NCBI GenBank assembly: GCA_030427125.1
Contig: JAUHXF010000006.1
Coordinates: 1 to 52,530, forward strand
DNA from: a bacterium
Lineage (GTDB): Bacteria; Patescibacteriota; Saccharimonadia; Saccharimonadales; SZUA-47
Direction: 5' to 3'
DNA: 52,530 nucleotides
A program made the translations under genes and the position numbers. Positions 39,805 to 52,530 of the stretch are shown piece by piece (the stretch's first letter is position 1; each line of letters opens with the position of its first letter). A model generated the notes under the pieces. That model saw only the letters and a program-made list of their open reading frames with translations, searched no databases and was not told the DNA's origin.

Positions 39805-40728
39805 CTAAGCAGCCGGTGGAGCTTTACGGGTAGATTTCTTACTGACTTCATTTGCTTGAATCATTGCATCTCGCATTTGCGCTGAAATATCATTCATCCC
39901 GCTCGGACTATGCGGAATCATGATCGTGTTGGAATTACTCGAGAGTCCTACATCCTTTAGCGTGTCGAAATACTGTGTCATGAGGACGAGATTCATGACG
40001 TCATGCGCACTGGTGCCTTCAATACTTTCCTTGAACTGACTAACTGATTCTTCGAGACCACGCACAATTGCTGTTCGCTGATCAGCGATACCCTTTCCTT
40101 GCAGCGCTTTACTCTCAGCTTCCGCCTCGGCAGCCTTCACGACACGAATTTTCTCTGCCTCAGCTTCTTCAACCGCTGCTACGCGCTGTCGCTGCGCGGC
40201 GTTGATCTGGTTCATGCTCGCTTTCACATTCGCATCTGGATCGATATCAGTCACAAGCGTCTTCACAATGCCGTAACCAAAATCATCCATAATTTGCTCG
40301 AGTTCAATCTTCACCGCTTGTGCAATATCGTCTTTTGTCTCAAAAACATCATCTAGTTTGATACCTGGCACCCGCGCACGCACAACATCATACACATAAC
40401 TGGTAATCTGCGCTTCTGGGTTTTGGAGCTTATAGAAAGCATCAACAATCTTCTCAGGAATGACGTAGTACTGAACGCTGACGATGACAAAGACGAAAAC
40501 GTTGTCCTTTGTCTTTGTCTCAACGCGTACATCAAGCTGCCGTACACGCAAACTCAACCGGCCTGCGACTCTATCGATAAGTGGTATACGCCAGTTTAGC
40601 CCAGCCGATGCCACACGCTTAAACTTACCGAACCGTTCGACTAGTGCTGCAGTCTGTTGCCTGACAGTAAAAAGACCAAATAATAAAAATACAAATACTG
40701 CGATTATTAAAAAAGTGACTGCTCCCAT
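39805..40728 (-). CDS. SPFH/stomatin-like membrane protein
   Basis: A 307-aa band-7 protein: one N-terminal membrane helix (residues 2-21), then the SPFH domain from VRQQTAALVERFGKFKRV to about residue 190, a long Ala/Glu coiled coil (EEAEAEKIRVVKAAEAEAESKA), and a tail rich in Ser, Lys and Ala. It resembles QmcA/stomatin proteins that scaffold membrane microdomains and often sit with an NfeD partner, which is not present here. GAGGGAG precedes the ATG. Confidence 0.9.
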   Translation of the reverse strand: MGAVTFLIIAVFVFLLFGLFTVRQQTAALVERFGKFKRVASAGLNWRIPLIDRVAGRLSLRVRQLDVRVETKTKDNVFVFVIVSVQYYVIPEKIVDAFYKLQNPEAQITSYVYDVVRARVPGIKLDDVFETKDDIAQAVKIELEQIMDDFGYGIVKTLVTDIDPDANVKASMNQINAAQRQRVAAVEEAEAEKIRVVKAAEAEAESKALQGKGIADQRTAIVRGLEESVSQFKESIEGTSAHDVMNLVLMTQYFDTLKDVGLSSNSNTIMIPHSPSGMNDISAQMRDAMIQANEVSKKSTRKAPPAA

Positions 40729-40809
40729 AGAAACTCCCTCGTTATACTTCTACTATACACCTCTGTATATCATGACTCAAAAGGTGTTCACCTGAAGAGT
40801 TATCTCTGG

Positions 40810-40815
40810 TATAAT
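40810..40815 (+). promoter_or_regulatory. -10 box of tRNA-Ser(UGA)
   Basis: A perfect TATAAT ending 11 nt before the mature tRNA 5' end. No convincing -35 was chosen. Confidence 0.7.
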
Positions 40816-40826
40816 CCATCTCTACT

Positions 40827-40918
<92 letters not shown>

Positions 40919-40921
40919 ATG

Positions 40922-40950
40922 TAGAGTCGACTTTTAGTCGATTCTTTTCA
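40922..40950 (+). terminator. Possible terminator between the tRNA genes
   Basis: GAGTCGA and TCGATTC form a 7-bp stem with one G-U around a TTTTA-containing loop, followed by TTTTCATTT. A weak but plausible end of the first tRNA transcript. Confidence 0.5.
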
Positions 40951-40957
40951 TTTCAGA

Positions 40958-40963
40958 TACAAT
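40958..40963 (+). promoter_or_regulatory. -10 box of tRNA-Ser(GGA)
   Basis: TACAAT ends 10 nt before the second tRNA, so the two tRNA genes are probably separate transcripts. Confidence 0.6.
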
Positions 40964-40973
40964 TGTATTTCAA

Positions 40974-41063
40974 GGAGAGGTGTCCGAGTGGTTTAAGGAG
41001 CACGCTTGGAAAGCGTGTATGCGGGCAACCGTATCGAGGGTTCGAATCCCTTCCTCTCCGCCA
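40974..41063 (+). tRNA. tRNA-Ser (anticodon GGA)
   Basis: A 90-nt class II tRNA with the same acceptor stem as the first copy (GGAGAGG/CCTCTCC), the anticodon loop CTTGGAAAG with GGA, a long variable arm, and encoded CCA. It reads UCC and UCU. Confidence 0.96.
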
Positions 41064-41134
41064 GTGAAAATTTTCTCTACACTTATGCTTTGAAACACTG
41101 TGCGACCGATGTAAAATACACATAAAGAAACCTC

Positions 41135-42025
41135 ATGGCAGAACAAAGACCAATTATCAGTATTGAAGACGTATCCAAAGTATATGGCTTTGGTGATGCA
41201 ACGACAGTTGCACTAGATGAGGTGTCACTTGATATTAACAAGGGCGAATTCATCGCTGTCATGGGTCCAAGCGGTTCAGGTAAAACGACGCTCATGAATA
41301 TTATCGGTATGCTTGATCGCCCGTCACACGGGATATATAAACTAAACGGCCGTGACGTCTCCCGGCAGAAACGCAATAAACAAGCAAAGACAAGGCGTGA
41401 CAATATCGGTTATATATTCCAGTCGTTCAATCTTCTTCCTCGTCTCACAGCGCTTGAGAATGTAGCACTACCGCTTGCCTACAAACGCGTTCCTCAGACA
41501 CGTCGCCTCAAAGCAGCCGCGAGAGCTCTCGACCAAGTAGGGTTATCTGACAAAGAGTACAATCTCCCAACACAATTATCGGGCGGACAATTACAGCGTG
41601 TCGCGATAGCAAGAGCGCTTGTCAACGGGCCAAGCATTATCATTGCCGATGAGCCAACTGGTAATCTAGACTCAACGAGCGCGCGAGTTGTTATGGAACT
41701 CCTCAGTGAAATCCATAAACTCGGTAACACCGTGCTCATGGTGACTCATAACCCTTCCCTTACTCGATACGCAGACAGAATCCTCTATATGCTTGATGGC
41801 AGTATCGTCTATGATGAAGCGAGCGCAGTTGGTGAGATGCCCACTCGTGTCCAACGAGCGGTGCAAGCACTTCGGACATCAGATGATGATGAAAAGCTTG
41901 CAAGTGTATCCGCGATGATGGAAACGATGCCTGAACCAAAGTCATCTGATGACGAGGATAAAGGCAAGAAAAAGAAGCGACGAAAATCTGCTCGAAAAAA
42001 ACGCGGAAAGAAGGCGAAGAAATAA
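41135..42025 (+). CDS. ABC transporter ATP-binding protein, MacB/LolD type
   Basis: A 296-aa ATPase. Walker [10 protein letters not shown], the Q-loop in [11 protein letters not shown], signature LSGGQLQR, Walker [14 protein letters not shown] and switch His in MVTHNP are all present. A normal LolD/MacB ATPase is about 230 aa; the extra 60 residues end in a strongly basic tail ([19 protein letters not shown]). TAAAAT lies about 16 nt upstream. The permease ATG follows the stop directly. Confidence 0.93.
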
Positions 42026-43246
42026 ATGTGGAATGAATACCGCAAGATGGCCTTTACATCAATTCGTGGAGCAAAGTTCCGCTCTGCACTCACTATGTTT
42101 GGCATCATCATTGGTGTGAGCTCAGTCGTCACAATTGTTAGCCTCGGTGAAGGAGTAAAGCAACAAGTCACCACACAAGCTGGTGAAATTTCTGACTCAC
42201 TGGTTGTTATACGACCAGGCAAAGAACAAGAAGCAAGCGCATTCTCGCTCGACGTCCTGCGAACATACGTCGACAATAACACCGGTTCGCTCAGTGAAAA
42301 AGACTGGCAAGACACCTTAGAAGTCGACAATGTTTCGTCATCAGTTCCCGTTGGCATAGTAAGCGGCATTGCCACGTTTGAAGATGCAGAATATAACGGC
42401 AACATTATTGCCAGCACTGCACGACTGCCCCGATTGCTGAACCAAAATATAGAATTTGGTGAGTACTTTACAGACTCAGGCAGTACGAAAAAGAAAGTCG
42501 CCGTCATTGGGCGCGACGTTGCCGAACAATTATTTGGCGAGAATGTTCCGATTGGCAAGTCACTACAAATCCGAGGTGAGAAATTTATCGTTCAGGGTGT
42601 GTTCGAGCAACAAGATTCCGGCACATTCGCAGCGATCAACATCAACAACTCGATCATGATTCCATATGAATCTGCTAAGGATATCGGTGGGAATATTCAA
42701 CTTCTCCAAATTTATGTTGAGGCGGAAGACGCCACACAAGTTGATGCAGTGTCTGATGATGTGCGCGAAACGCTCATTAAAAACCACGCCGGCCAAGAAG
42801 ATTTTACAATTCTTGAGCGTGAAGAGGCGCTTGAAGCTACCAATGCTGTCTTCTATCAGCTAACCGTCTTTACCGCAGGAGTTGCCTTTATATCATTCAT
42901 TGTTGGTGGTATTGGCATTATGAATATCATGTTTGCAACGGTCAGCGAACGCACGAGAGAAATCGGCATCAGAAAAGCAATTGGTGCAACCAACTCGCAG
43001 ATCCTTGGTCAATTTGTCATGGAGTCAGCACTACTGAGTATCTTAGGTGGTTTCTTTGGCGTCTTACTCGCCTTTGTTGCCAACGCTATTATCCGTGTCA
43101 CTACTGATTTACAGCCTGTTACTACCTGGCAAGTGGTTGCAATTGCAGCCGGACTATCTGTTGTCACTGGCATAGTATCTGGAATATTGCCAGCAGCAAA
43201 AGCTGCAGCAAAAGACCCAATTGCTTCCCTCCGCACTGACGCGTAG
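42026..43246 (+). CDS. ABC transporter permease, MacB type
   Basis: A 406-aa permease with the MacB topology: one N-terminal helix (about residues 20-45), an extracytoplasmic domain of about 230 residues, and three C-terminal helices carrying the FtsX-like fold with ERTREIGIRKAIGAT before the second last helix. It works with the adjacent ATPase to extrude or extract lipids, peptides or lipoproteins by mechanotransmission. In an organism without an outer membrane the periplasmic adaptor is not expected, and none is seen. Confidence 0.93.
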   Translation: MWNEYRKMAFTSIRGAKFRSALTMFGIIIGVSSVVTIVSLGEGVKQQVTTQAGEISDSLVVIRPGKEQEASAFSLDVLRTYVDNNTGSLSEKDWQDTLEVDNVSSSVPVGIVSGIATFEDAEYNGNIIASTARLPRLLNQNIEFGEYFTDSGSTKKKVAVIGRDVAEQLFGENVPIGKSLQIRGEKFIVQGVFEQQDSGTFAAININNSIMIPYESAKDIGGNIQLLQIYVEAEDATQVDAVSDDVRETLIKNHAGQEDFTILEREEALEATNAVFYQLTVFTAGVAFISFIVGGIGIMNIMFATVSERTREIGIRKAIGATNSQILGQFVMESALLSILGGFFGVLLAFVANAIIRVTTDLQPVTTWQVVAIAAGLSVVTGIVSGILPAAKAAAKDPIASLRTDA

Positions 43247-43263
43247 GCTATACTTTTTCTTAT

Positions 43264-43869
43264 ATGAGACTCACCCATCGTCGTTTTAATAACGTACTAT
43301 CGTTTATCGTTATTGCGCTCGGACTTTACATTGCAATTGCGCCGTTTTGGCCTTCTATAGTCTTTATTTTTCAAGATAAATCACCAGAGACACGTGCACC
43401 GTACGTAGGTCAGCTAGCGGACTCTGAAGGCAGTACGACAAACAAAGACATCCCGACAGACAACAGAATTGTCATACCATCAATTCAAATAGATGAGCCT
43501 ATCGTAGAAAGTAACTCTATCACTGCTATACATGACGGTGGGACGTGGCGACGACCAAATACCGCTATACCAACCGACGAAAACAATACCGTCATCGTTG
43601 GCCATAGGTGGTTTGGCAATGATATCTCAACGTTCTACCACCTTGATAAGGTAAATATCGGCGACAAATTAGCTGTCTACTGGGAGGGTGAGGAAATAGT
43701 CTATGAGGTTACTGAATCAAAAGTTGTTGATGCCACGGCAACTGAGATAGAAGCTGCCACCGCTGAAAAGCAACTTACTATTTATACATGCGACCCTATC
43801 TGGACTGCGAAGAATCGACTCGTTCTCGTTGCAAAACCTATCGAGAATATGGAGGCTGCAACACTATGA
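43264..43869 (+). CDS. Sortase
   Basis: A 201-aa sortase: one N-terminal membrane helix (about residues 12-35) then the sortase barrel. The catalytic His is in VIVGHRWFG, the Cys is in LTIYTCDPIW, and the Arg is in KNRLVLVAKP. It covalently anchors LPXTG-type proteins to the cell envelope. The protein at 46368-46931 carries an LPNTG sorting signal. TATACT ends 9 nt before ATG 43264. The stop overlaps the next gene by 4 bases. Confidence 0.92.
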   Translation: MRLTHRRFNNVLSFIVIALGLYIAIAPFWPSIVFIFQDKSPETRAPYVGQLADSEGSTTNKDIPTDNRIVIPSIQIDEPIVESNSITAIHDGGTWRRPNTAIPTDENNTVIVGHRWFGNDISTFYHLDKVNIGDKLAVYWEGEEIVYEVTESKVVDATATEIEAATAEKQLTIYTCDPIWTAKNRLVLVAKPIENMEAATL

Positions 43870-44009
43870 AATTTCTGAAAAAACTCTGGAATTGGCAAAT
43901 AACAGAAAAGCAACGAACGATTATTTTGTTACTTCTACTTATCTTCGCAATTGGCTTCATCCTCTGGACACGCGGCCAATACAACTCAAATTTCGTTGAT
44001 TCATTTTGA
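43866..44009 (+). CDS. Small single-pass membrane protein
   Basis: A 47-aa protein starting MKFLKKLWNWQ, with one hydrophobic helix (LLLLLIFAIGFILW) and a short polar tail. It overlaps the sortase stop as ATGA, so it is coupled to it. It could be an accessory of the sortase, but nothing beyond context supports this. Confidence 0.6.
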   Translation: MKFLKKLWNWQITEKQRTIILLLLLIFAIGFILWTRGQYNSNFVDSF

Positions 44010-44045
44010 TATAAAACTGTTCATTTTCGGTATATAATCCACAGC

Positions 44046-44447
44046 ATGACAAAAAAATTCATCATGCTGTGTGTTGTTGTTTCGTTACTTTTCGGAATTG
44101 GATATACCTATTGGTCTTCGTTGTTCATTACTCACACGTATTATTCAGATTATTTTCCATACGAGACCTGCAATACTGAAGTTAATTTAGAGAACAATAG
44201 TCTGCAATCACCTGAAGCATGCATTCCTTATGTAGTAGAAGAATCAAATGGCTTCCCTTTTCAGTTCATAAAAACAACCTACGAAATTGAGCAAAACGAA
44301 GGTGAGCCTCTTACTTTCTATCCAACTGAAATGACCTACACACACCTCATCATTGCTAATGTTCTCCTTGCTTCCACAGCATTCTTCATTACGCTAATAG
44401 CAATAAATAAAGTACACGCACTATATACCAAGCAACAAGCTGCCTAG
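44046..44447 (+). CDS. Two-helix membrane protein, function unknown
   Basis: A 133-aa protein with a hydrophobic N-terminus (residues 5-24) and a second helix near residues 101-120, separated by an external loop of about 75 residues with two Cys (in ETCNTE and EACIPY) that may form a disulfide. TATAAT ends 7 nt before ATG 44046, so it is probably leaderless. It ends beside the convergent isomerase gene. Confidence 0.6.
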   Translation: MTKKFIMLCVVVSLLFGIGYTYWSSLFITHTYYSDYFPYETCNTEVNLENNSLQSPEACIPYVVEESNGFPFQFIKTTYEIEQNEGEPLTFYPTEMTYTHLIIANVLLASTAFFITLIAINKVHALYTKQQAA

Positions 44448-44448
44448 A

Positions 44449-45480
44449 CTACTCATCTAGGGCTCTTTTCATCTTTTCGATGAGATCAACCGGTGTAGGA
44501 TTAAGCCCATTTAACAGTGCTGTGTACATACTGACAAAATCTCCGAATGCAACACAGTACAGGAGGTGCTCAAGAACGGTGTCGCCTTTTGCCTCTATGA
44601 CGTGCGGTGCTGGTCGCTGACCAGACAGTAGTCTTTCAGTTACCTCGAATCGCTTCTGCACACGCGGATGCTCGAAGCTAGAACGAAGATCAATAATGCT
44701 ATACGGCTTATCAACCGGATGCGACGTCCAGCCGAGGAACTCGTTGTGTGAAAACTCAGGTATTTCATCGGTCCACGCAACGTTTTTTGCATTTTCGTTA
44801 AAGCTAATTTTCCACTTATACGCCGCAGGCGACATCATCGGTCCGCCATAGATTACTGGTGACGTACCTGCAACCTCTAGTGCTAGCTGCTTGGCAGGAT
44901 TTTTATCCGTCGGGACGTCCGGTAGCCAATTCGCTATCTCCTTTTTCAAAAATTGCGATGCCTCGTGCAGCGTCTTCTCTGCACCGGTCTCTTTTACTAA
45001 ACCAGCACGCTCCAAGATAGTAACGAGTGATTTTAAGCCGTTCAGAGCAGCAAATCTTGGCTGCGAAGACTTCGGCAGCAAGGTCAGTGGATAGCCCTTC
45101 TCCTTGGCAATTTCAACCAATTTACCACCGCCAGCAGATATCACAATATATGCTCCTGCCTTCTCCCCCGCCTCTAGAGCTGAGATCGTTTCTTCAGTAT
45201 TGCCGGAGTAGCTGGAGATAATCATCAGTGTTTTATTGGACACATAATCCGGTGCATCATAACGGCGCCAGATTTTAAACGGCACCGTATACCCAGGCCA
45301 TGTTTCGGATAGCTGCGCCCACAGCGCCGAGCCTCCCATGCCAGCAAATACAATATTGTCTACCTCATAATCTAATGCCGGTAAATCATACTCAGTTTCC
45401 AACATTTTCCACTGAGCTGCTGCAATACCAAGTGCATCCTGCGAATCTTTTTGATGAATATATTTTAAGTCATCTAGCAT
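44449..45480 (-). CDS. Bifunctional phosphoglucose/phosphomannose isomerase
   Basis: A 343-aa SIS-domain isomerase of glucose-6-phosphate and mannose-6-phosphate. IVFAGMGGSALWA begins the first SIS domain and MIISSYSGNTEETISALE carries the sugar-phosphate site; FSHNEFLGW is the C-terminal signature. I use ATG 45480 (MLDDLKYIHQKD); ATG 45504 also fits. GAGGGAAGAG lies upstream. It feeds glycolysis and nucleotide-sugar synthesis. Confidence 0.88.
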   Translation of the reverse strand: MLDDLKYIHQKDSQDALGIAAAQWKMLETEYDLPALDYEVDNIVFAGMGGSALWAQLSETWPGYTVPFKIWRRYDAPDYVSNKTLMIISSYSGNTEETISALEAGEKAGAYIVISAGGGKLVEIAKEKGYPLTLLPKSSQPRFAALNGLKSLVTILERAGLVKETGAEKTLHEASQFLKKEIANWLPDVPTDKNPAKQLALEVAGTSPVIYGGPMMSPAAYKWKISFNENAKNVAWTDEIPEFSHNEFLGWTSHPVDKPYSIIDLRSSFEHPRVQKRFEVTERLLSGQRPAPHVIEAKGDTVLEHLLYCVAFGDFVSMYTALLNGLNPTPVDLIEKMKRALDE

Positions 45481-45504
45481 GTTTGTCTCTTCCCTCTTAT
45501 GCAC

Positions 45505-45711
45505 TAGAGTTTACGTGTTTTAAGGCTTCAGCAAAAGTGAATTTTTGGCTGGTTAGAATGTTTGTTCTTTCTTTAAAAGGCGTAAATGTACACATTGAAA
45601 AGAAAAACAAAAGCTATAGTTGTCAAAAAACACTTTATTGAGGTTTTAAAGCACGAAAATTCTAGTTATACTATAGCGTAAATAGGAATAACTTAGAACC
45701 AGGGGTGGGAA
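45505..45711. other. Intergenic gap with promoters only
   Basis: About 200 AT-rich bases between two divergent genes. TATACT near 45668 serves the plus-strand gene. A 28-codon ATG frame at 45558 lacks a ribosome site and is not called. Nothing else is visible. Confidence 0.5.
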
Positions 45712-46356
45712 ATGTTTGGACAACCAGATGATCAGCAACTAACGGGCAGCGCACAACAAGCGCAAAATCCTTCGATGCTCGATAATGTATCAACACAAGA
45801 TTTACAAGGGCAATCACCAGTGCAACCAACTCAAACCGCGCAGCCTGTAAGCGACCCACAAGCACAGAACTTTGCTCAACAACACCCCCTGACAACCGAT
45901 GATCCGTTTGTATCTCAAACACCTTCGCCTACACCACCAGCTGATCCAACTCCTGCTCCTGTCGCGGACCCAATGGTTTCTGCACAACCTGCTCCAGCAC
46001 CAGACGCTCCAGCAAGCCAGCCTGCTCCAGCACCTGTTTACCAGACAGAAGAGCCTGCTACTCCTACTACAAATACATCCGACACACCAGAACCGCCTGC
46101 AGTAGACCACGACAAGCTAGCCGGCATGAAGCAAGAGGCAATGAGCCATCTTGAACCACTCGTTGACCACATAGACGGATCTCCAGAAGAAACATTTAAG
46201 ACTACCATGATGATGATTCAGGCAAACGATAATCACATGTTACTCGATAAAGCTCTCGAGGCAGCAAAAGGCATATCAGATGATAAAGCTCGAGCCGAAG
46301 CACTTTTGGACATCATCAACGAGATTAACTACTTCTCGCAGGCGCAGAACTCGTAA
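45712..46356 (+). CDS. Pro/Gln-rich protein with helical C-terminal domain
   Basis: A 214-aa protein. Residues 1-135 are low-complexity, rich in Gln, Pro, Ala and Thr, with repeats such as PAPAPDAP and QPAPAP. The last 80 residues form a compact helical domain (DHDKLAGMKQEAMSHLEPL to AEALLDIINEINYF). No signal peptide or membrane helix. GGGG-type ribosome site before the ATG. Function unknown. Confidence 0.55.
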   Translation: MFGQPDDQQLTGSAQQAQNPSMLDNVSTQDLQGQSPVQPTQTAQPVSDPQAQNFAQQHPLTTDDPFVSQTPSPTPPADPTPAPVADPMVSAQPAPAPDAPASQPAPAPVYQTEEPATPTTNTSDTPEPPAVDHDKLAGMKQEAMSHLEPLVDHIDGSPEETFKTTMMMIQANDNHMLLDKALEAAKGISDDKARAEALLDIINEINYFSQAQNS

Positions 46357-46367
46357 GTATTAGCCCT

Positions 46368-46931
46368 CTAGCGAACTTGAAATCGGCGTGATACAGCATA
46401 ACCGATAACTACTGTTGTAAGCAGAATTAGTGCGACCGTTTCGCCTGCACCGGTATTTGGGAGGTCATCTGATGTACTCAGCGAACTATCAGTAGCTGAA
46501 TCACCAGCCACATCACGAGTTGTACTTGCAGCTTCGTCTGATACCACGCCACCTTCTTCGGTTTCAGAATTTGAATCACTACCTACGTCACCATCGCCAG
46601 GGTTATCCGTATCTTCAGCTTGGTTTAATACGCCCGCAACAACATCTTCACTACTTCTTGGATCGCTTGAGCCATCTGTAATAACAGTCACAGTACCATC
46701 ACCCTCGGTTGAGCCTGTTGTTACCTCAGATTCTGATGAATTGTCTGTAACTGCACGATATACCCAACGTGCCGCAAAGAATAGTCCAGCTACCACGATA
46801 ACTGTCACAATCAAACTCATTAGAGCCATTAGCCACGCACGACCTCGTCCTTGGCTTTTACCTTGTGTTGCATAGTAGCTTTCAAGCTCAGCGATCGTTT
46901 GATTCTCTCGTCGGCGAAAAGGATTTTTCAT
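46368..46931 (-). CDS. LPXTG-type sortase-anchored protein
   Basis: A 187-aa protein with MKNPFRRRENQTIAELESYY at the start, a membrane helix (about residues 35-57), an Asp/Ser/Glu/Gly-rich central region without Cys, and a C-terminal sorting signal LPNTG followed by a hydrophobic stretch and RRFQVR. The last part is a textbook LPXTG signal; the first helix may be a signal anchor. Start at ATG 46931 (an ATG at 46961 is also possible). The sortase is encoded 2.5 kb away. Confidence 0.8.
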   Translation of the reverse strand: MKNPFRRRENQTIAELESYYATQGKSQGRGRAWLMALMSLIVTVIVVAGLFFAARWVYRAVTDNSSESEVTTGSTEGDGTVTVITDGSSDPRSSEDVVAGVLNQAEDTDNPGDGDVGSDSNSETEEGGVVSDEAASTTRDVAGDSATDSSLSTSDDLPNTGAGETVALILLTTVVIGYAVSRRFQVR

Positions 46932-47024
46932 CGTAAATACATCTCCATTTACAAGGCCCACTCACCTCTGTTTATATAGATATTGTACTATAATAATATC
47001 AAAAAATCAACTATAACGGTGTGC

Positions 47025-47927
47025 TTATGAAGAAACGTAGTGATGTGACACCGTTTCACGCGACGTGTGTCCTTGCAGGTTCTTGTCACCGTGCTCTATG
47101 ACTGCATGCCAGACTGGACGCTCAGATAATCCAGCTCCTTGAGGGAAGAATACTATATCTCCCTGGTGTAATGATGCGTAATCTAGTGTTTGATGGAGTG
47201 TTGGGAGTTCGACACTGCCACTCGCTAAGCCATTCATTCGTTTTGCCTTTGAAACAACTCCCTTAACAGCTGGGTGCTCTTGAATCGCTTTTTGCCTTCT
47301 TACGTATCCTTCCTGATTCTGTTGCATTGCTGTATTTGAGGCAAAGCCCGAAATAAATAAGATGGATCCTTTTTGTACTTCGATAGCACTCATGTCGTAA
47401 CGAAAACCCTTCTCTCCTGGGCCATCACGAAGAAAATTATCAAGATGCACCTTTGAGTCACCACTAAATTGCCCAGTTCGAGGGAAGCTCATTAAGGAAT
47501 GTTTTTGGATTCTACTGTCTGAAATTAGTGGCTGCTCTAGCAGATCAATTGGTTCTTGCCCTTCTTCTAACTGCTCTGTGGTGGCACCAGCTCTAACAAC
47601 GAGTCCAGTGTTTTTGCCGGCAAGAAGCCTATCAAAACCAAGCTTGAGATCGTCCATACACAGCTCAGTTCCCTCGCCAATTTCGGCAAGACCGTGGCCA
47701 AAGCGTCTATCAGCATTGCGCTCCAGGAGCCTCTGCAAATCCTCCCTTGGTCGATCAACCATTTCACGCAACGACCTGAGAGCTTGGGTACGTTCAGAAA
47801 AATCTTCTATCTCACCAACAAATCCGGCGATATCAGCTTGGTGTTCTGGTGCTAACTCGCCATCGCGAACAAACTCCTGTGCGTAACCTATGATGAATGA
47901 TGTATTTGTTTCTGGTTTAGTTGTCAT
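47025..47927 (-). CDS. Hypothetical protein
   Basis: A 300-aa soluble protein with no signal peptide and a single Cys. It begins MTTKPETNTSFIIGYAQEF. The final segment LHQGDIVFFPQGAG followed by VWHAVIEHGD resembles the last strands of an NlpC/P60-like peptidase (GDxVFF then His), but the nucleophilic Cys cannot be located with confidence. Function unknown. Confidence 0.42.
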   Translation of the reverse strand: MTTKPETNTSFIIGYAQEFVRDGELAPEHQADIAGFVGEIEDFSERTQALRSLREMVDRPREDLQRLLERNADRRFGHGLAEIGEGTELCMDDLKLGFDRLLAGKNTGLVVRAGATTEQLEEGQEPIDLLEQPLISDSRIQKHSLMSFPRTGQFSGDSKVHLDNFLRDGPGEKGFRYDMSAIEVQKGSILFISGFASNTAMQQNQEGYVRRQKAIQEHPAVKGVVSKAKRMNGLASGSVELPTLHQTLDYASLHQGDIVFFPQGAGLSERPVWHAVIEHGDKNLQGHTSRETVSHHYVSS

Positions 47928-47959
47928 GTGTCTCTTGTGATTTTTTGCTGCTGTGGCGA

Positions 47960-48292
47960 TTAACTCTGAGGCGGCTCAGTATATTCTGCTATCCTTCTCG
48001 CTACGTCGTCAATAACATCTTGCATAGCACCAACAGCCCCAAGCCTAGCAGCTCGCTGTATCTGTTGTTCTGGAGATTCATCAATAGCAGCTGTCATATC
48101 CAGATCTGCTAGTGCTGCATCTGCTTCTTGCTGCACACCAGCAATCCACGCAGTGATTTTTTCTGTTGGTATGCTACCTGAATCATCAACATCACCAACG
48201 TCACGCTGAGGACGATATGCATACTCCACATCTCCTACATCCAGCTTTAGTTGCTCAGGGGTTTTGCCGCTTGAATTACTCATTAGATTCAT
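47960..48292 (-). CDS. Small acidic hypothetical protein
   Basis: A 110-aa soluble protein, rich in Asp, Ala and Gln: an N-terminal polar region (KLDVGDVEYAYRPQRDVGDVDDS) and a helical part (WIAGVQQEADAALADLDMTAAI). No family recognised. It lies 32 bp upstream of the gene at 47025-47927 on the same strand and is probably co-transcribed with it. Confidence 0.42.
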   Translation of the reverse strand: MNLMSNSSGKTPEQLKLDVGDVEYAYRPQRDVGDVDDSGSIPTEKITAWIAGVQQEADAALADLDMTAAIDESPEQQIQRAARLGAVGAMQDVIDDVARRIAEYTEPPQS

Positions 48293-48320
48293 TGGTATTA
48301 TACATCTAGAATTAACTGAT

Positions 48321-48345
48321 GGTGGTCAGACTTGATCTGACTACC
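48321..48345 (-). terminator. Hairpin at the end of the 31-codon gene
   Basis: GGT-A-GTCAGA and TCTGAC-C-ACC around a 5-nt loop, starting at the stop codon of the small gene. No T run follows, as with the hairpins after rpoD. Confidence 0.5.
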
Positions 48346-48436
48346 CTACTCGAACTTCAATCTTCACTGGTTCTACGTCTTCGTATTGGAGGTCGAAGTG
48401 TTTTACAACTTCTGCTTGGTTTGGTTCATTTTTCAT
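48341..48436 (-). CDS. Small 31-aa protein under a consensus promoter
   Basis: A 31-residue acidic ORF beginning MKNEPNQAEVVKHFDLQYED and ending KIEVRVG before TAG. It is preceded by a perfect TTGACA-17-TATAAT promoter (48461-48489), with a leader of about 18 nt and a weak AAGG. The gene is bounded upstream by the terminator of the DUF5663-like gene. No other gene explains this promoter. It is likely a highly expressed small protein; homology unknown. Confidence 0.6.
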   Translation of the reverse strand: MKNEPNQAEVVKHFDLQYEDVEPVKIEVRVG

Positions 48437-48460
48437 ATTTATTTTTACCTTAACATTGAC

Positions 48461-48489
48461 ATTATAGCAAAATGCTTGTGTTTTGTCAA
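48461..48489 (-). promoter_or_regulatory. Perfect consensus sigma-70 promoter
   Basis: Minus strand TTGACA (48484-48489), exactly 17 nt, TATAAT (48461-48466): the only full consensus I found in this window. It drives the 31-codon ORF. Confidence 0.85.
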
Positions 48490-48501
48490 TCTCTTCCAAA
48501 G

Positions 48502-48527
48502 AAAAACACCCCGTATAACAGGGGTGT
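48502..48527 (-). terminator. Rho-independent terminator of the DUF5663-like gene
   Basis: Minus strand ACACCCC (48527-48521) and GGGGTGT (48512-48506) around an 8-nt loop, followed by TTTTT. Confidence 0.88.
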
Positions 48528-48547
48528 CTACCTCAAGAGCTACTCTA

Positions 48548-48859
48548 TTAGCTCTTTTTCAAGCTATCTAACGTCTTTTGAGTGTCTGCTTTGTACTCTT
48601 GAAGTGTCTCTTCATAGATACTGTCGATGAGCTTGTCCAGCTCTCCGCCTAATGCCTCTTCGAATACAATCTTTTCAGCTTCTTCATCGCTTGCACTTTT
48701 CAGTGTTTCCAGTTGCTCGTCTGACAATGATTCAACTGCTGTCATGCGTAGCTTCATCATTACTACTTGGCTGAACGCTTGGCTTACAGCTTCCTTAACG
48801 TCATTCTCAGCGCTTTCAAGACCGAGATCTTTGAGTAGTTTTTCTTTAGATAGTTCCAT
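48548..48859 (-). CDS. DUF5663-like acidic helical protein
   Basis: A 103-aa helical, acidic protein. MELSKEKLLKDLGLESA, then VVMMKLRMTAVESLSDEQLETL and a long C-terminal helix, resemble the short DUF5663 proteins, a family I associate from memory with CPR genomes. No function is known. TTTTC-like purine-rich sequence before the ATG gives AGGAAAA as a weak ribosome site. It sits downstream of the large surface-type gene. Confidence 0.6.
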   Translation of the reverse strand: MELSKEKLLKDLGLESAENDVKEAVSQAFSQVVMMKLRMTAVESLSDEQLETLKSASDEEAEKIVFEEALGGELDKLIDSIYEETLQEYKADTQKTLDSLKKS

Positions 48860-48906
48860 TTTTGTTTTCCTGTTTTTATTATTCGTTATATTCGTACTAT
48901 ATCACT

Positions 48907-51069
48907 TTAGCTTGTTGCTTGTGCTTCGGCCAACTCTTGCATTCGCTGTAGCATAAATTCAGCTACACCAGGATTCCATGCATTTTGACCTGCAGAGCTA
49001 ATTCGTAAATCACCGTTCTGTACATATTCACTACCAGTAAGTAAATCATCTCCGAATTTAGCACGTGCTTCATTGAACACCTGAGTTGAGATTGAATCAT
49101 TTCTACTCATACCATTTGCTTCAGCGAAGTCGTTAATCTCTTGTATAAATCCATTACCGGACTCAACATTAAATTCATTACCGACAATTGCTTGTGTTTC
49201 TGCTTGTTCACCTGCTACTTCATCCAAATTATCCCCACGACCATCGACTATTTCTGCAATTTCATCTTCTGGAGAAGCTTCTATCTCGTCTGCTGCTGGC
49301 TCTACTTCAGGAGCACTTCCTGCATCAGGGTCGACATCCACATCAACATCTATACCACGTGCCTCAGGGGTCCACGGTTCTTCACCCGTTGCAATACCGC
49401 TCTGTGATGTTTCGTTATTGAACGGATTAAGGTCTAGGCCGTCTCCATCAAAAGGATTTATATCAATATCCTTGATTTTATCCCATGCGTCACCTGCGAC
49501 GTCGCCAACCACTTCAGCACCATCAGCAACCGTATCGCCGACTCCCTGTGCGAGGTTTCCAATTTGCTTAACGCCATCTTTGACTACATCCATTTTGCCG
49601 AACTCGTTAAGTCCAAGACCTAGTGCATCAACAGCAGCAAATCCGGCGCCACCAAGGGCTGCTGAACCAATTGTTCGACGTCGGTTCTTCTTAACATATT
49701 CTTTTGTCTTCTCGTGTGAAGCCCCTGCTATATCTACAGCACCAAGGGCTTCAAGAGAGTCAGCTTCACTGACTGCACGCAGAACCGCGTCTCTGTCAGT
49801 TTGGTTATGAATACCAGCTTGTGTTCCAGCTTCTGCGTTATGTCGTAAACGACCCATCGCCTGTCCACGACCGAATCGTGCAGCAAGTAATGCTGGAGCA
49901 GCGAATGAAGCTGATAGACCGAGTCCTGCGGCTGCAAAGCTAGCTCCGACAGCAGCACCTGCACCGATGCCAGCCATTAATGCGATTTTCTTTAGTCTAC
50001 CGAATCTTGGTTTCTTTCCTTCTTCGTCAACCTCTGACCACTTGGTCCACAGGTTGTTGAACTTCTTCATGAATGCGTTGCTGTTCGCAAGGCTCTCTTG
50101 TTGTTGCTGCATACCATCGTATACAGCTACTGTTTCAGTTGCGGTTGTAAGGCTCGCGAACGCTAGAATATCTTCTTCAGAGGCTCCATCTCTTTCAAAC
50201 ATTTCCCCAGCGAGCTCGTTCGCAAAAGTTTTTGCTTTGTTATACTCAGCCAATGCATCTTCTATAGCTTTTTCACGATTCGCTTTTCTGAAGCCGAAGC
50301 TTAGACGTCGTCTCTTTGAAGACAGTTCAATATACTTGTCACGCGCGACAGCAACGCGTTCGTTTGCCGCATCCATTTCAAGCTGTAGCGTGCTTGGTTT
50401 TTCTGGGCCGTAAGGTTCATCACCAACACCACCTTCAGCATTAAGATCATTACCTTCACCCTCTGGCTCATCCCCTTCTGGTGCTTCAGGAGTAGTCACT
50501 GTTGGAGATGTTCCGTCTTTTCGGAAAGCGTCGTATTCAGCTGTGTTACGCAGGCCCTCTTCTTTAATCATTTTTAGGCGTTTTGCTTCTTTCTTCTTGT
50601 AAAGATCCTTGGCCTTTTTCTTTGCGATTAGTGGGTTCTCGCCATCAGCAATATACTTGCCTGCAAGTTTACCTATCTCTTCTGTATCTTTTTCACGAAG
50701 ATCCATGATGAGCTTAGCCTGTGTTAGCTCATAACCATCTTCTAGGAGACTGTTTACATCTTCTTCGTACTTCTGAGCGACAGCTTCTCGTTCAGCTTCA
50801 GTCTTGCCGTAACGTCGGTTTGATCGAATCTCTTCAAGCTTTCCAGGTTCTGGCTTATCTGGAGATGCGACTACTTCACCTGATGCATCTGTATATGTAC
50901 GAGCTCCTGAGCCATAAATTTCCATCTGAGCAGTATCATTCATTGCAGAGGTTTCTGCATTATTCATGAGTTGCTCAAGCTGTGTTGCTTTTTCGTTAGC
51001 TGCAAGTGCCGTAGCGGTTGCATCTTCCATGCCTGCAAGGCGTGATTCTGGGGTTACGTGTCGTTCCAT
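48907..51069 (-). CDS. Large acidic multidomain protein, CPR-type
   Basis: A 720-aa protein. Residues 1-190 are helical with basic KKKAKDLYKKK modules; 190-225 are Pro/Glu-rich and duplicated in the neighbouring gene. Residues 225-340 form a helical coiled-coil region. Two Gly/Ala-rich hydrophobic segments lie near 362-395 (IALMAGIGAGAAVGASFAAAG) and 470-487, and a Gly/Asp/Glu-rich region near 500-630 contains VDVDVDPDAG. The C-terminus is an amphipathic domain ending ELAEAQATS. The two hydrophobic segments could insert in a membrane. Function unknown. A strong promoter at 51132-51160 suggests high expression. Confidence 0.6.
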   Translation of the reverse strand: MERHVTPESRLAGMEDATATALAANEKATQLEQLMNNAETSAMNDTAQMEIYGSGARTYTDASGEVVASPDKPEPGKLEEIRSNRRYGKTEAEREAVAQKYEEDVNSLLEDGYELTQAKLIMDLREKDTEEIGKLAGKYIADGENPLIAKKKAKDLYKKKEAKRLKMIKEEGLRNTAEYDAFRKDGTSPTVTTPEAPEGDEPEGEGNDLNAEGGVGDEPYGPEKPSTLQLEMDAANERVAVARDKYIELSSKRRRLSFGFRKANREKAIEDALAEYNKAKTFANELAGEMFERDGASEEDILAFASLTTATETVAVYDGMQQQQESLANSNAFMKKFNNLWTKWSEVDEEGKKPRFGRLKKIALMAGIGAGAAVGASFAAAGLGLSASFAAPALLAARFGRGQAMGRLRHNAEAGTQAGIHNQTDRDAVLRAVSEADSLEALGAVDIAGASHEKTKEYVKKNRRRTIGSAALGGAGFAAVDALGLGLNEFGKMDVVKDGVKQIGNLAQGVGDTVADGAEVVGDVAGDAWDKIKDIDINPFDGDGLDLNPFNNETSQSGIATGEEPWTPEARGIDVDVDVDPDAGSAPEVEPAADEIEASPEDEIAEIVDGRGDNLDEVAGEQAETQAIVGNEFNVESGNGFIQEINDFAEANGMSRNDSISTQVFNEARAKFGDDLLTGSEYVQNGDLRISSAGQNAWNPGVAEFMLQRMQELAEAQATS
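50454..50580. repeat. 127-bp exact repeat, copy A
   Basis: Identical to 52404-52530. It codes in both genes for the segment from RLKMIKEEGLRNTAEYDAF to PEGDEPEGE, after which the two proteins diverge. Confidence 0.95.
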
Positions 51070-51131
51070 GAGTGTATAAGTTTCCTTTACTTAGCTGATC
51101 TAGTTTTTGTATTTTTGTTTGTAATGTTATT

Positions 51132-51160
51132 ATATTAGCAAATTATTGCTTTTTTGTCAA
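51132..51160 (-). promoter_or_regulatory. Strong sigma-70 promoter of the 720-aa protein gene
   Basis: Minus strand TTGACA (51155-51160), a 17-nt spacer and TAATAT (51132-51137). The leader is about 55 nt and has AAAGGA before the ATG. It separates the two paralogous genes. Confidence 0.75.
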
Positions 51161-51174
51161 GGTGGTTGTGGTTA

Positions 51175-52530
51175 TTATTGTTTCCAGCTTGCCTTTAGTC
51201 TTTCCCACTCTCGACGTGGAGTTCTCACGACAGACCCTGGACGAGACTGTTTATTACGAGTAGTTGCTTTTTTAGATTTTTCTTCAGAATCGTCATCGTC
51301 AAAGACTATTTCGACTCCTTCGGAATTGATATATTTCGCATGTAGCTCATACTCATCCGAAATTTCCATTAACTCATCTTCACTTATCTGACGTCCGACG
51401 TTGCCGTCTGCATCTGGTGTGTAAAAGCGAATTTTACCGTCATCGCCTACTTTACCTAAGACTTCAAGTGGTGTTTTCTTGCCTCTTGTGTCTACGTCAA
51501 AGAATGAGTCCATCAACGCACCGATGCCTGGCGTTCCCCAATCATCCAGCGAGTCTCCAACCGGTACATCCGTTTCTATAGGTTTTGCTGTAACCGCAGC
51601 GAGCTGACGCTCCTCGGCGAGTCGATTAACTTCTTGTTTCTGTTCTTTTCGCCATTTTCTCGCTTGCTTACCATCAAAATTTCCAAAGCGCACATAGTTT
51701 CTTCCAAGCTTACGAAGCACCTTATTTAGTCGCTTTTTATCTGCGCGATTATACGCCCCATTGCTTTTGAAGCCTTCTAGTTCTTCTTCTAACTCAGCTC
51801 TATCTCGCAAAGGATCCCATGAACGCTTTTCAGCTTTCGGCTCTACTGCAGAGTCAGCAGGAGCTTCTTCATTCTTTCTATGAGATCGCGAACCGGCTGG
51901 GTGCTCTTCACGATATTCGTTGATAATCTTATCAAAGAGCTCCTTTCGTTCTTTACGAGCCTGCTTTCTAGTCATCGTACCGTCTTTAACAAGGCCTCGG
52001 TACAGTTTCTTCATTATTATGCTCGCTCGTGCAAGATCATCAGGCGTCTCTGCGCCTTCTTCTAGTAATGCCTCGATTTCACCCTTCATCATTACTGCAT
52101 CTTCTGGATACGTGTATTCAACAGACTTAAGGTTTTCTTCGTTGATCCTGTCCTCTGGGTTTTCAACTGGCTCTTTTAATTCAGCAGGTGTCGGTACTAC
52201 TTCAATGCCATGTGTACCACTTTTCTTTGCTTCTCTTTTTACCTTTCGAGTCTCTTTACGATCTTTATACTTCTTCGTAACTCTTCCAAGGCCCCGTATA
52301 GCAGTCTCCTCTGGAGTTTTTTCTTCATCGTGGATTTTCTCAGCTTCAGAGGAGTCATCTTCTCGCTTTTCAGGTCCTGGTGTAGGCTCTGGACTTTCTG
52401 GCGCTTCACCCTCTGGCTCATCCCCTTCTGGTGCTTCAGGAGTAGTCACTGTTGGAGATGTTCCGTCTTTTCGGAAAGCGTCGTATTCAGCTGTGTTACG
52501 CAGGCCCTCTTCTTTAATCATTTTTAGGCG
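51175..52530 (-). CDS. Paralogous large acidic protein, 5' end cut by window
   Basis: At least 451 codons; the frame is open through the last base, so the start is outside. The first visible part (RLKMIKEEGLRNTAEYDAF) equals an internal part of the 720-aa protein, after which the sequences differ. The rest is charged and helical, with two related modules: LARASIIMKKLYRGLVKDG followed by KQARKERKE, and RLNKVLRKLGRNYVRFG followed by KQARKWRKE. They also resemble the N-terminal KLAGKYIADG module of the 720-aa protein. The C-terminus is basic with an RPGSVVRTPRREW tail. No membrane helix in the visible part. Confidence 0.6.
   Translation of the reverse strand, partial: RLKMIKEEGLRNTAEYDAFRKDGTSPTVTTPEAPEGDEPEGEAPESPEPTPGPEKREDDSSEAEKIHDEEKTPEETAIRGLGRVTKKYKDRKETRKVKREAKKSGTHGIEVVPTPAELKEPVENPEDRINEENLKSVEYTYPEDAVMMKGEIEALLEEGAETPDDLARASIIMKKLYRGLVKDGTMTRKQARKERKELFDKIINEYREEHPAGSRSHRKNEEAPADSAVEPKAEKRSWDPLRDRAELEEELEGFKSNGAYNRADKKRLNKVLRKLGRNYVRFGNFDGKQARKWRKEQKQEVNRLAEERQLAAVTAKPIETDVPVGDSLDDWGTPGIGALMDSFFDVDTRGKKTPLEVLGKVGDDGKIRFYTPDADGNVGRQISEDELMEISDEYELHAKYINSEGVEIVFDDDDSEEKSKKATTRNKQSRPGSVVRTPRREWERLKASWKQ
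52404..52530. repeat. 127-bp exact repeat, copy B, at the window end
   Basis: Identical to 50454-50580 and ending at the last base of the window. Confidence 0.95.

Follow-up and report, generated by a model that had tools for sequence, protein, structure and literature searches.

A conserved 31-codon gene behind a consensus promoter in a Saccharimonadia bacterium

Unannotated bacterial small proteins of fewer than 50 amino acid residues (for example, those of the catalogue of PMC11364881, as far as its main text goes) are short, conserved within a genus or a family, and without domain annotation; that main text mentions neither Patescibacteria nor Saccharibacteria. A 31-codon gene of a Saccharimonadia bacterium shares these properties and differs from the class, as outlined there, in its conserved promoter architecture and its likely conserved genomic place. 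The gene lies in what is called here the window, that is, the whole stretch of DNA analysed (52,530 nucleotides; contig JAUHXF010000006.1 of GCA_030427125.1). The small genomes, their gene content, and the shape of the order likewise suggest Patescibacteria and, probably, Saccharimonadia. Among the matches listed in literature searches on small proteins and conserved unknown genes in Saccharibacteria, Patescibacteria, Saccharimonadia, and candidate phyla, there was no title on these proteins. The likeness to the described domain PF19631 Trypco2 (trypsin-co-occurring domain 2) is weak: the orthologue from a genus relative (G001) scored 14.1 bits, below the cut-off of 24.2 bits, the domain has 78 positions, and the window protein itself gave no hit.

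Since the genomes of these bacteria are small, little room is expected for spare genes, and yet a perfect promoter is kept for a protein of 31 residues that has no entry in three family libraries (Pfam, PHROGs, and NCBIfam). The first-pass annotation had described the protein as uncatalogued, which agrees with these library searches; a small ORF of this sequence may exist, without a name, in some deposited data set. Several hits were dismissed, namely a PHROG hit (E 0.071) and a Pfam hit (E 0.058) of the G001 orthologue and an NCBIfam MovA hit of a G006 protein (16.5 of 33 bits). Two hits of a PDB profile search (E 0.25 and 0.87) were taken as chance. In summary, this is a genuine, selected small-protein gene that has no family in the searched libraries, and its place is likely conserved.

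The 31-codon gene and its promoter

The features of the locus, all on the minus strand, are as follows.
48484..48489 (-): -35 hexamer TTGACA, 6/6 consensus, common to all six small genes compared
48461..48469 (-): extended -10 element TGC-TATAAT (hexamer 48466-48461), 6/6 plus TG
48437..48460 (-): 5′ leader of 24 nt, with GTTAA six bases 3′ of the -10 element (sequence reading)
48341..48436 (-): small gene of 31 codons, MKNEPNQAEVVKHFDLQYEDVEPVKIEVRVG plus TAG (by translation; its orthologue shows silent changes)
48321..48345 (-): hairpin over the stop codon, local z -3.1, without a U tract
48504..48529 (-): intrinsic terminator of the upstream 103-aa gene, U-tailed
47960..48292 (-): downstream ORF of 110 aa, without detectable homology to the gene at the same place in G001
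48548..48859 (-): upstream ORF of 103 aa, likewise without detectable homology to its positional counterpart in G001

The TTGACA-17-TATAAT site at 48489-48461 (-), with its TG-extended -10 element, matches the consensus at 12 of 12 positions (scan of 40000-52530). Exact TTGACA-17-TATAAT occurs twice in the whole window, at 48489-48461 and 37938-37910, against 0.01 expected in shuffles, and the TG extension is found only at the former. It had been claimed that the small gene has the best promoter in the window; the full score stands, but it is shared with the site at 37938-37910 (-). The latter site lies 6 nt 5′ of a 255-aa ORF. Is such a promoter a mark of the small gene? With a spacing of 16-18 nt, eight perfect sites were found in the same genome (G000) and none in the reversed control. 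Perfect promoters were present in all 41 genomes of the relatives search, in some of which the reversed control also matched (none in G000). Therefore, TTGACA-17-TATAAT, a consensus of the housekeeping type, is the ordinary strong promoter of this lineage, a general type that does not mark the small gene. A DNA search with the promoter region mostly returned promoter-like sites 5′ of unrelated larger genes and was set aside.

Transcription of the small gene likely starts at about 48454 (-). A weak AAGG lies 11 nt 5′ of the ATG and is absent from the genus relative, and the leader stretch GTCAATGTTAA is identical between the window and that relative. GTTAA was seen 6-7 nt 3′ of the -10 element in many of the promoters read (e.g., at 48454 in the window), and it is possible that GTTAA is a preferred transcript start in these genomes. 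At 43 of 77 perfect-promoter sites in loci of the family genomes (L013-L113), the first ORF starts 12 nt or less from the -10 element, an indication that messages without a leader are common in these bacteria; in the window, the site at 37938-37910 is an example. With its 24-nt leader, the small gene of the window is not of the leaderless kind. Another perfect promoter of this genome, G000:C6:94647-94675(+) in L014, precedes a 51-aa Lys-rich ORF that ends in CAFC and has a Shine-Dalgarno-like GAAAGGA before it.

The ORF that had been proposed, 31 codons at 48436-48341 (-) including the stop, was found by translation, and its product contains the stretch MKNEPNQAEVVK. The genome used for the coding comparison was G001, the only other genus member compared (contig JAUHWW010000001.1). 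The G001 orthologue has 33 aa, is 74% identical in the alignment, and is preceded by a perfect TTGACA-17-TATAAT of its own. The alignment covers 31 codons: 12 identical ones, 11 with silent differences (12 if the stop is counted), and eight that change the residue, so that 23 of 31 residues are kept; the NG86 estimates are dN 0.17 and dS 3.0. When the same 25 substitutions were placed at random, 23 of 31 residues were kept in none of 20,000 trials. For this one genome pair, purifying selection on the frame is evident, and the codon comparison showed that 48436-48341 (-) is a real small-protein gene. The conserved residues and synonymous bias that had been suggested as a check were thus found, and the original suspicion of a consensus promoter serving a small protein was borne out by the perfect site and by the conservation of the coding ORF in G001.

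Small genes on the 5′ side of tsaD

Sequence searches did not lead beyond the genus. With profile A1, the two genus members were the only sequences below E 0.03 in 392 genomes of the order, and the other nine genomes of the family (11 including the genus pair) yielded one fragment that looks like chance (E 0.115). Among the genome contigs, a codon pattern for EDVEPVKIE matched the genus relative and one WOR-3 contig; the latter, whose stretch reads EDVEPVKIENM and then a stop, was set aside as chance. No match of this codon pattern was found in viral contigs, nor was any match found in phages or plasmids.

The route beyond the genus was to collect perfect promoters in genomes of the family and to read the ORFs behind them. 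At five of 77 distinct sites (sites in the loci retrieved up to that point, a subset of those in the family genomes), the first ORF has 25-45 aa and starts within 50 nt. All five ORFs carry F-x-L-x-[FY]-E-[DE]-[LV]: the window gene, its G001 orthologue, a 27-aa ORF of G008, a 40-aa ORF of G006, and another G001 gene. The last encodes a separate protein located between tgt and nrdR (see below), and the other four are counted as tsaD-side genes. The motif was read off the same sequences that it links, and this is a discovery, not a test. The motif segment of the window protein is FDLQYE, in agreement with [FY]-x-L-x-[YF]-E.

The tRNA-modification gene tsaD was identified by TIGR03723 in G000, G001, and G008. 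In G001, G006, and G008, tsaD has the small gene at its 5′ side, in divergent orientation, and was used as an anchor to fetch this side in further genomes. A motif-free scan of 33 tsaD loci gave short ORFs behind strong promoters in eight genomes; the motif is missing in seven of them, and a short ORF behind a promoter-like site is thus not rare at tsaD loci. The eighth is G005, whose ORF (38 aa, 108 nt from tsaD) contains YSLQYEALIVEP. A motif scan of 34 of 36 tsaD loci (294,291 bases, both strands; G000 and G021 were left out, and the known G001 gene is not in the scan) gave four ORFs divergent from tsaD, in G002, G005, G006, and G008. All four are from this family and lie behind promoters; the G002 ORF, which a previous motif scan had added, has 42 aa and contains VEVVDFRLVYEELP. 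On the other strand relative to tsaD, a motif ORF was found once, in G043.

In summary, tsaD-side small ORFs are present in G001, G002, G005, G006, and G008, i.e., in five of seven family genomes with a readable tsaD 5′ side, and absent from the other two, G003 and G010. As for the remainder of the 11 family genomes, G004 and G000 break at a contig end, and G007 and G009 gave no tsaD. The tsaD contig of G000 ends 138 nt upstream of tsaD and has no overlap with the window ends. The distance from the tsaD start to the small-gene start is about 84 nt in G008, 108 in G005, 925 in G002, 1772 in G001, and 2576 in G006. Together with the window gene, six promoters can be compared: each has TTGACA, a 17-nt spacer ending in TTTGC directly 5′ of the -10 box, and a -10 box of 4-6/6, with a total of 10-12 of 12. 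In all six genomes, the promoter lies 24-60 nt 5′ of an ORF of 27-42 aa. The six-row alignment is unsettled, and the FxLxY segment of G002 and G006 would fall within the second strand of the modelled hairpin, not the first.

Position, promoter, and motif support the view that the window gene is the local representative of a protein family (27-42 aa) that diverges quickly and whose genes, within this bacterial family, are divergent from tsaD. Outside the genus, the link rests on these three features, the sequences there being beyond the reach of the profile search. The drift of the sequence, with promoter architecture and place maintained, suggests a protein of the short-motif kind. Small genes that homology search missed were reached by starting from consensus promoters. 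The tsaD 5′ side in G001, G002, G005, G006, and G008 bears differing lineage-specific genes, several of them behind strong promoters. It is possible that this side is a hot spot for fast-evolving genes, homology having been compared for G000 and G001 only.

An order-wide protein with a similar motif

The same strategy also exposed a second small protein, which is distributed across the order and can be tested in cultured carriers. A promoter-plus-motif pattern run against 392 genomes of the order hit G000, G001, and G006 only, with no control hits. A looser pattern gave 10 hits in eight of the 392 genomes and four hits in the reversed control; the hit in G185 was dropped, there being no small ORF with the motif. 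Six of the 10 hits, in five genomes, are a separate small protein, SFxLFYEEL...RIRRxR, with a TTG or GTG start. The members read have 33-41 aa and a strong TTGAC-type promoter. Two members had no match in Pfam and NCBIfam, the profile had no match in PDB, and to my knowledge the protein has no existing name. The genes in the genomes inspected are as follows.
G000:C24:6716-6823 (-) (L155:1517-1627): SFxLFYEEL gene of the same genome as the window (profile match)
G001:C11, G006:C40, and G008:C1: SFxLFYEEL genes elsewhere

A profile of this protein, at E 0.01 or less, matched 162 of 392 order genomes (112 of 316 good-quality genomes; 103 of 156 genera), some of the matched stretches crossing a stop in the tail. 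With the exception of four genomes, there is a single place per genome. By hand count, matches are found in 157 of 187 genomes outside the family f34 and in five of 205 inside it, four of these five being marginal (E 0.002-0.008). In a sample of the phylum, seven of 192 genomes matched, and all seven are of the same order. In the four genomes inspected (G000, G001, G006, and G008), the gene is flanked by tgt and an nrdR-like gene; in G008, the interval also contains a 212-aa ORF on the opposite strand. Tgt was identified by TIGR00430 in G000 and G006, NrdR there by TIGR00244 below the cut-off, and both by eye in G001 and G008. Alignment A4 holds 27 sequences; of the 30 loci of the profile search, it leaves out L132, L134, L142, L143, and L146, where the ORF rule found none, and L152, which repeats L158.

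Is the window protein a diverged paralogue of this order-wide protein? This reading is plausible, although I consider it somewhat less probable than its opposite. The two resemble each other in length (33-41 and 27-42 aa), in the strong TTGAC-type promoter, in a GTTAA leader in several cases, and in F-x-L-x-[FY]-E-[DE]-[LV], which is present in five of the six tsaD-side proteins. When the tsaD-side proteins were scored with the SFxLFYEEL profile, the real score of the window protein was reached by none of 3000 shuffles, and likewise that of G002; the support is weaker for G006 (13), G008 (14), G005 (73), and G001 (122). A comparison by hhalign gave P 0.0021 when four rows were used and P 0.025 when two were used, but the corresponding probabilities are just 13.6 and 1.9 percent, and the motif itself had served to choose some of the rows. 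A link is likewise missing from the profile search at E 0.01, the only match in G000 being C24:6716-6823. The order-wide protein differs in its TTG or GTG start, its LFYEEL core, its distribution, and its place; the window ORF lacks the Arg-rich RIRRxR tail, and its neighbours are not tgt or the nrdR-like gene. The models also differ, a beta-hairpin for the window protein against a low-confidence helix (12-18) for the other, and both genes occur in all six genomes.

A wider version of this idea, which I put forward as a conjecture rather less likely to be right than wrong, is that one undescribed family of 27-42 aa has two branches, represented by the window protein and the SFxLFYEEL protein. 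Its members would be constitutive and abundant, and would dock a short segment of aromatic and acidic character on a conserved partner within the core machinery of these bacteria with small genomes. If so, the SFxLFYEEL branch would be present in most genomes of the order outside f34, and the other branch would be specific to this bacterial family, beside tsaD.

Transcription unit, alternative readings, and possible mode of action

The genes flanking the small gene in G000 and G001 are not homologous to each other and the small gene is, and thus it appears to be kept for itself; as judged from this comparison, it is a conserved island within a block of lineage-specific genes. Directly 3′ of the small gene, there is a promoter-like site for the next gene in G001 (TTTTCA-17-TATAAT, 10/12) and in G002, G005, and G008 (TTGACA-17-TATTAT, by-eye reading). 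Since the neighbours are non-homologous and the next gene has its own promoter in four genomes, the small gene is most likely a short transcription unit of its own that would encode a stand-alone small protein. In the window, read-through into the 110-aa ORF is possible. Taken jointly, the statements that the gene is real, that the G001 gene is its orthologue, and that the product is a stand-alone small protein are in my judgement probably correct.

With a promoter before it, a longer same-strand ORF after it, and a hairpin at its stop codon, the short ORF could instead encode a leader peptide whose translation controls the downstream gene by attenuation, as in amino-acid or drug-responsive leaders. 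This is very unlikely: the downstream genes of the two genus members share no homology, hydrophobic and acidic positions are mixed among the conserved residues, with no codon run, and the next gene has the promoters described above.

An RNA gene of about 130 nt with an incidental ORF, which the first-pass annotation had named beside the small protein, would also suit a strong promoter and a short unit. The hairpin claimed at the stop codon (48345-48321) does exist and is stable, with the local z of -3.1 given above, but it is not kept in the G001 orthologue; it has no U tract and is absent from the terminator-scan list, and no U-tailed terminator was found in the window 3′ of the small gene. 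The upstream U-tailed terminator at 48529-48504, also claimed earlier, is real (9 pairs, z -3.5), and no terminator-like site was found around the G001 orthologue. The RNA gene is unlikely because the stop hairpin and the upstream terminator are not conserved. When 160 nt of the window RNA were folded, z was -0.77, not clearly better than shuffles, and Rfam gave no family match at gathering score at the locus. The G001 orthologue RNA does fold better than shuffles (z -2.5; 2/200), which counts against rejection, but its hairpins differ from those of the window in sequence and place. It had been proposed that a fold kept without the frame would indicate a non-coding RNA; in this comparison of two sequences, the frame is kept, with residues maintained through silent changes, and the stop hairpin is lost. 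On the silent-change pattern and the differing folds, the protein half of the earlier alternative was retained, and the RNA half is highly improbable. An accessory small partner of a toxin-antitoxin, phage, or RiPP system, to which the surrounding block of lineage-specific genes might point, is the least probable reading, as the two genus members have no neighbour in common, phage and plasmid records gave no match and viral contigs no codon-pattern match, Pfam, PHROG, and NCBIfam gave no hit, and a constant location close to tsaD speaks for vertical inheritance.

For the stand-alone small protein, AlphaFold2 was run with the two sequences. The best model is a beta-hairpin with strands at residues 10-16 and 24-30, a block-mean pLDDT of 94 over residues 11-30, and a pTM of 0.37; of the five models, two average above 80 pLDDT and three about 65, and the secondary structure was read from the best one only. 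The protein has a net charge of -3 and, by eye, no membrane segment. Judging from promoter strength, transcription of the gene would be strong and constitutive and would give a short message of its own, and the protein would be abundant. The strand-like segment around FxLxYED[VL], one arm of the modelled hairpin, may then dock on a partner protein by adding a strand to the partner's sheet. Because of the strong promoter, the small size, the conserved strand-like core, and the drifting ends, I tentatively suggest that the protein could be an abundant small binder or modulator, not an enzyme, that acts through such strand docking; I regard this as doubtful.

Near the contig end, the neighbouring ORFs at 48907-51069 and 51175-52521 (-) both contain the identical stretch MIKEEGLRNTAEYDAFRKDGTSPTVTTPEAPEGDEPEGE, which points to a recent duplication or an assembly repeat.
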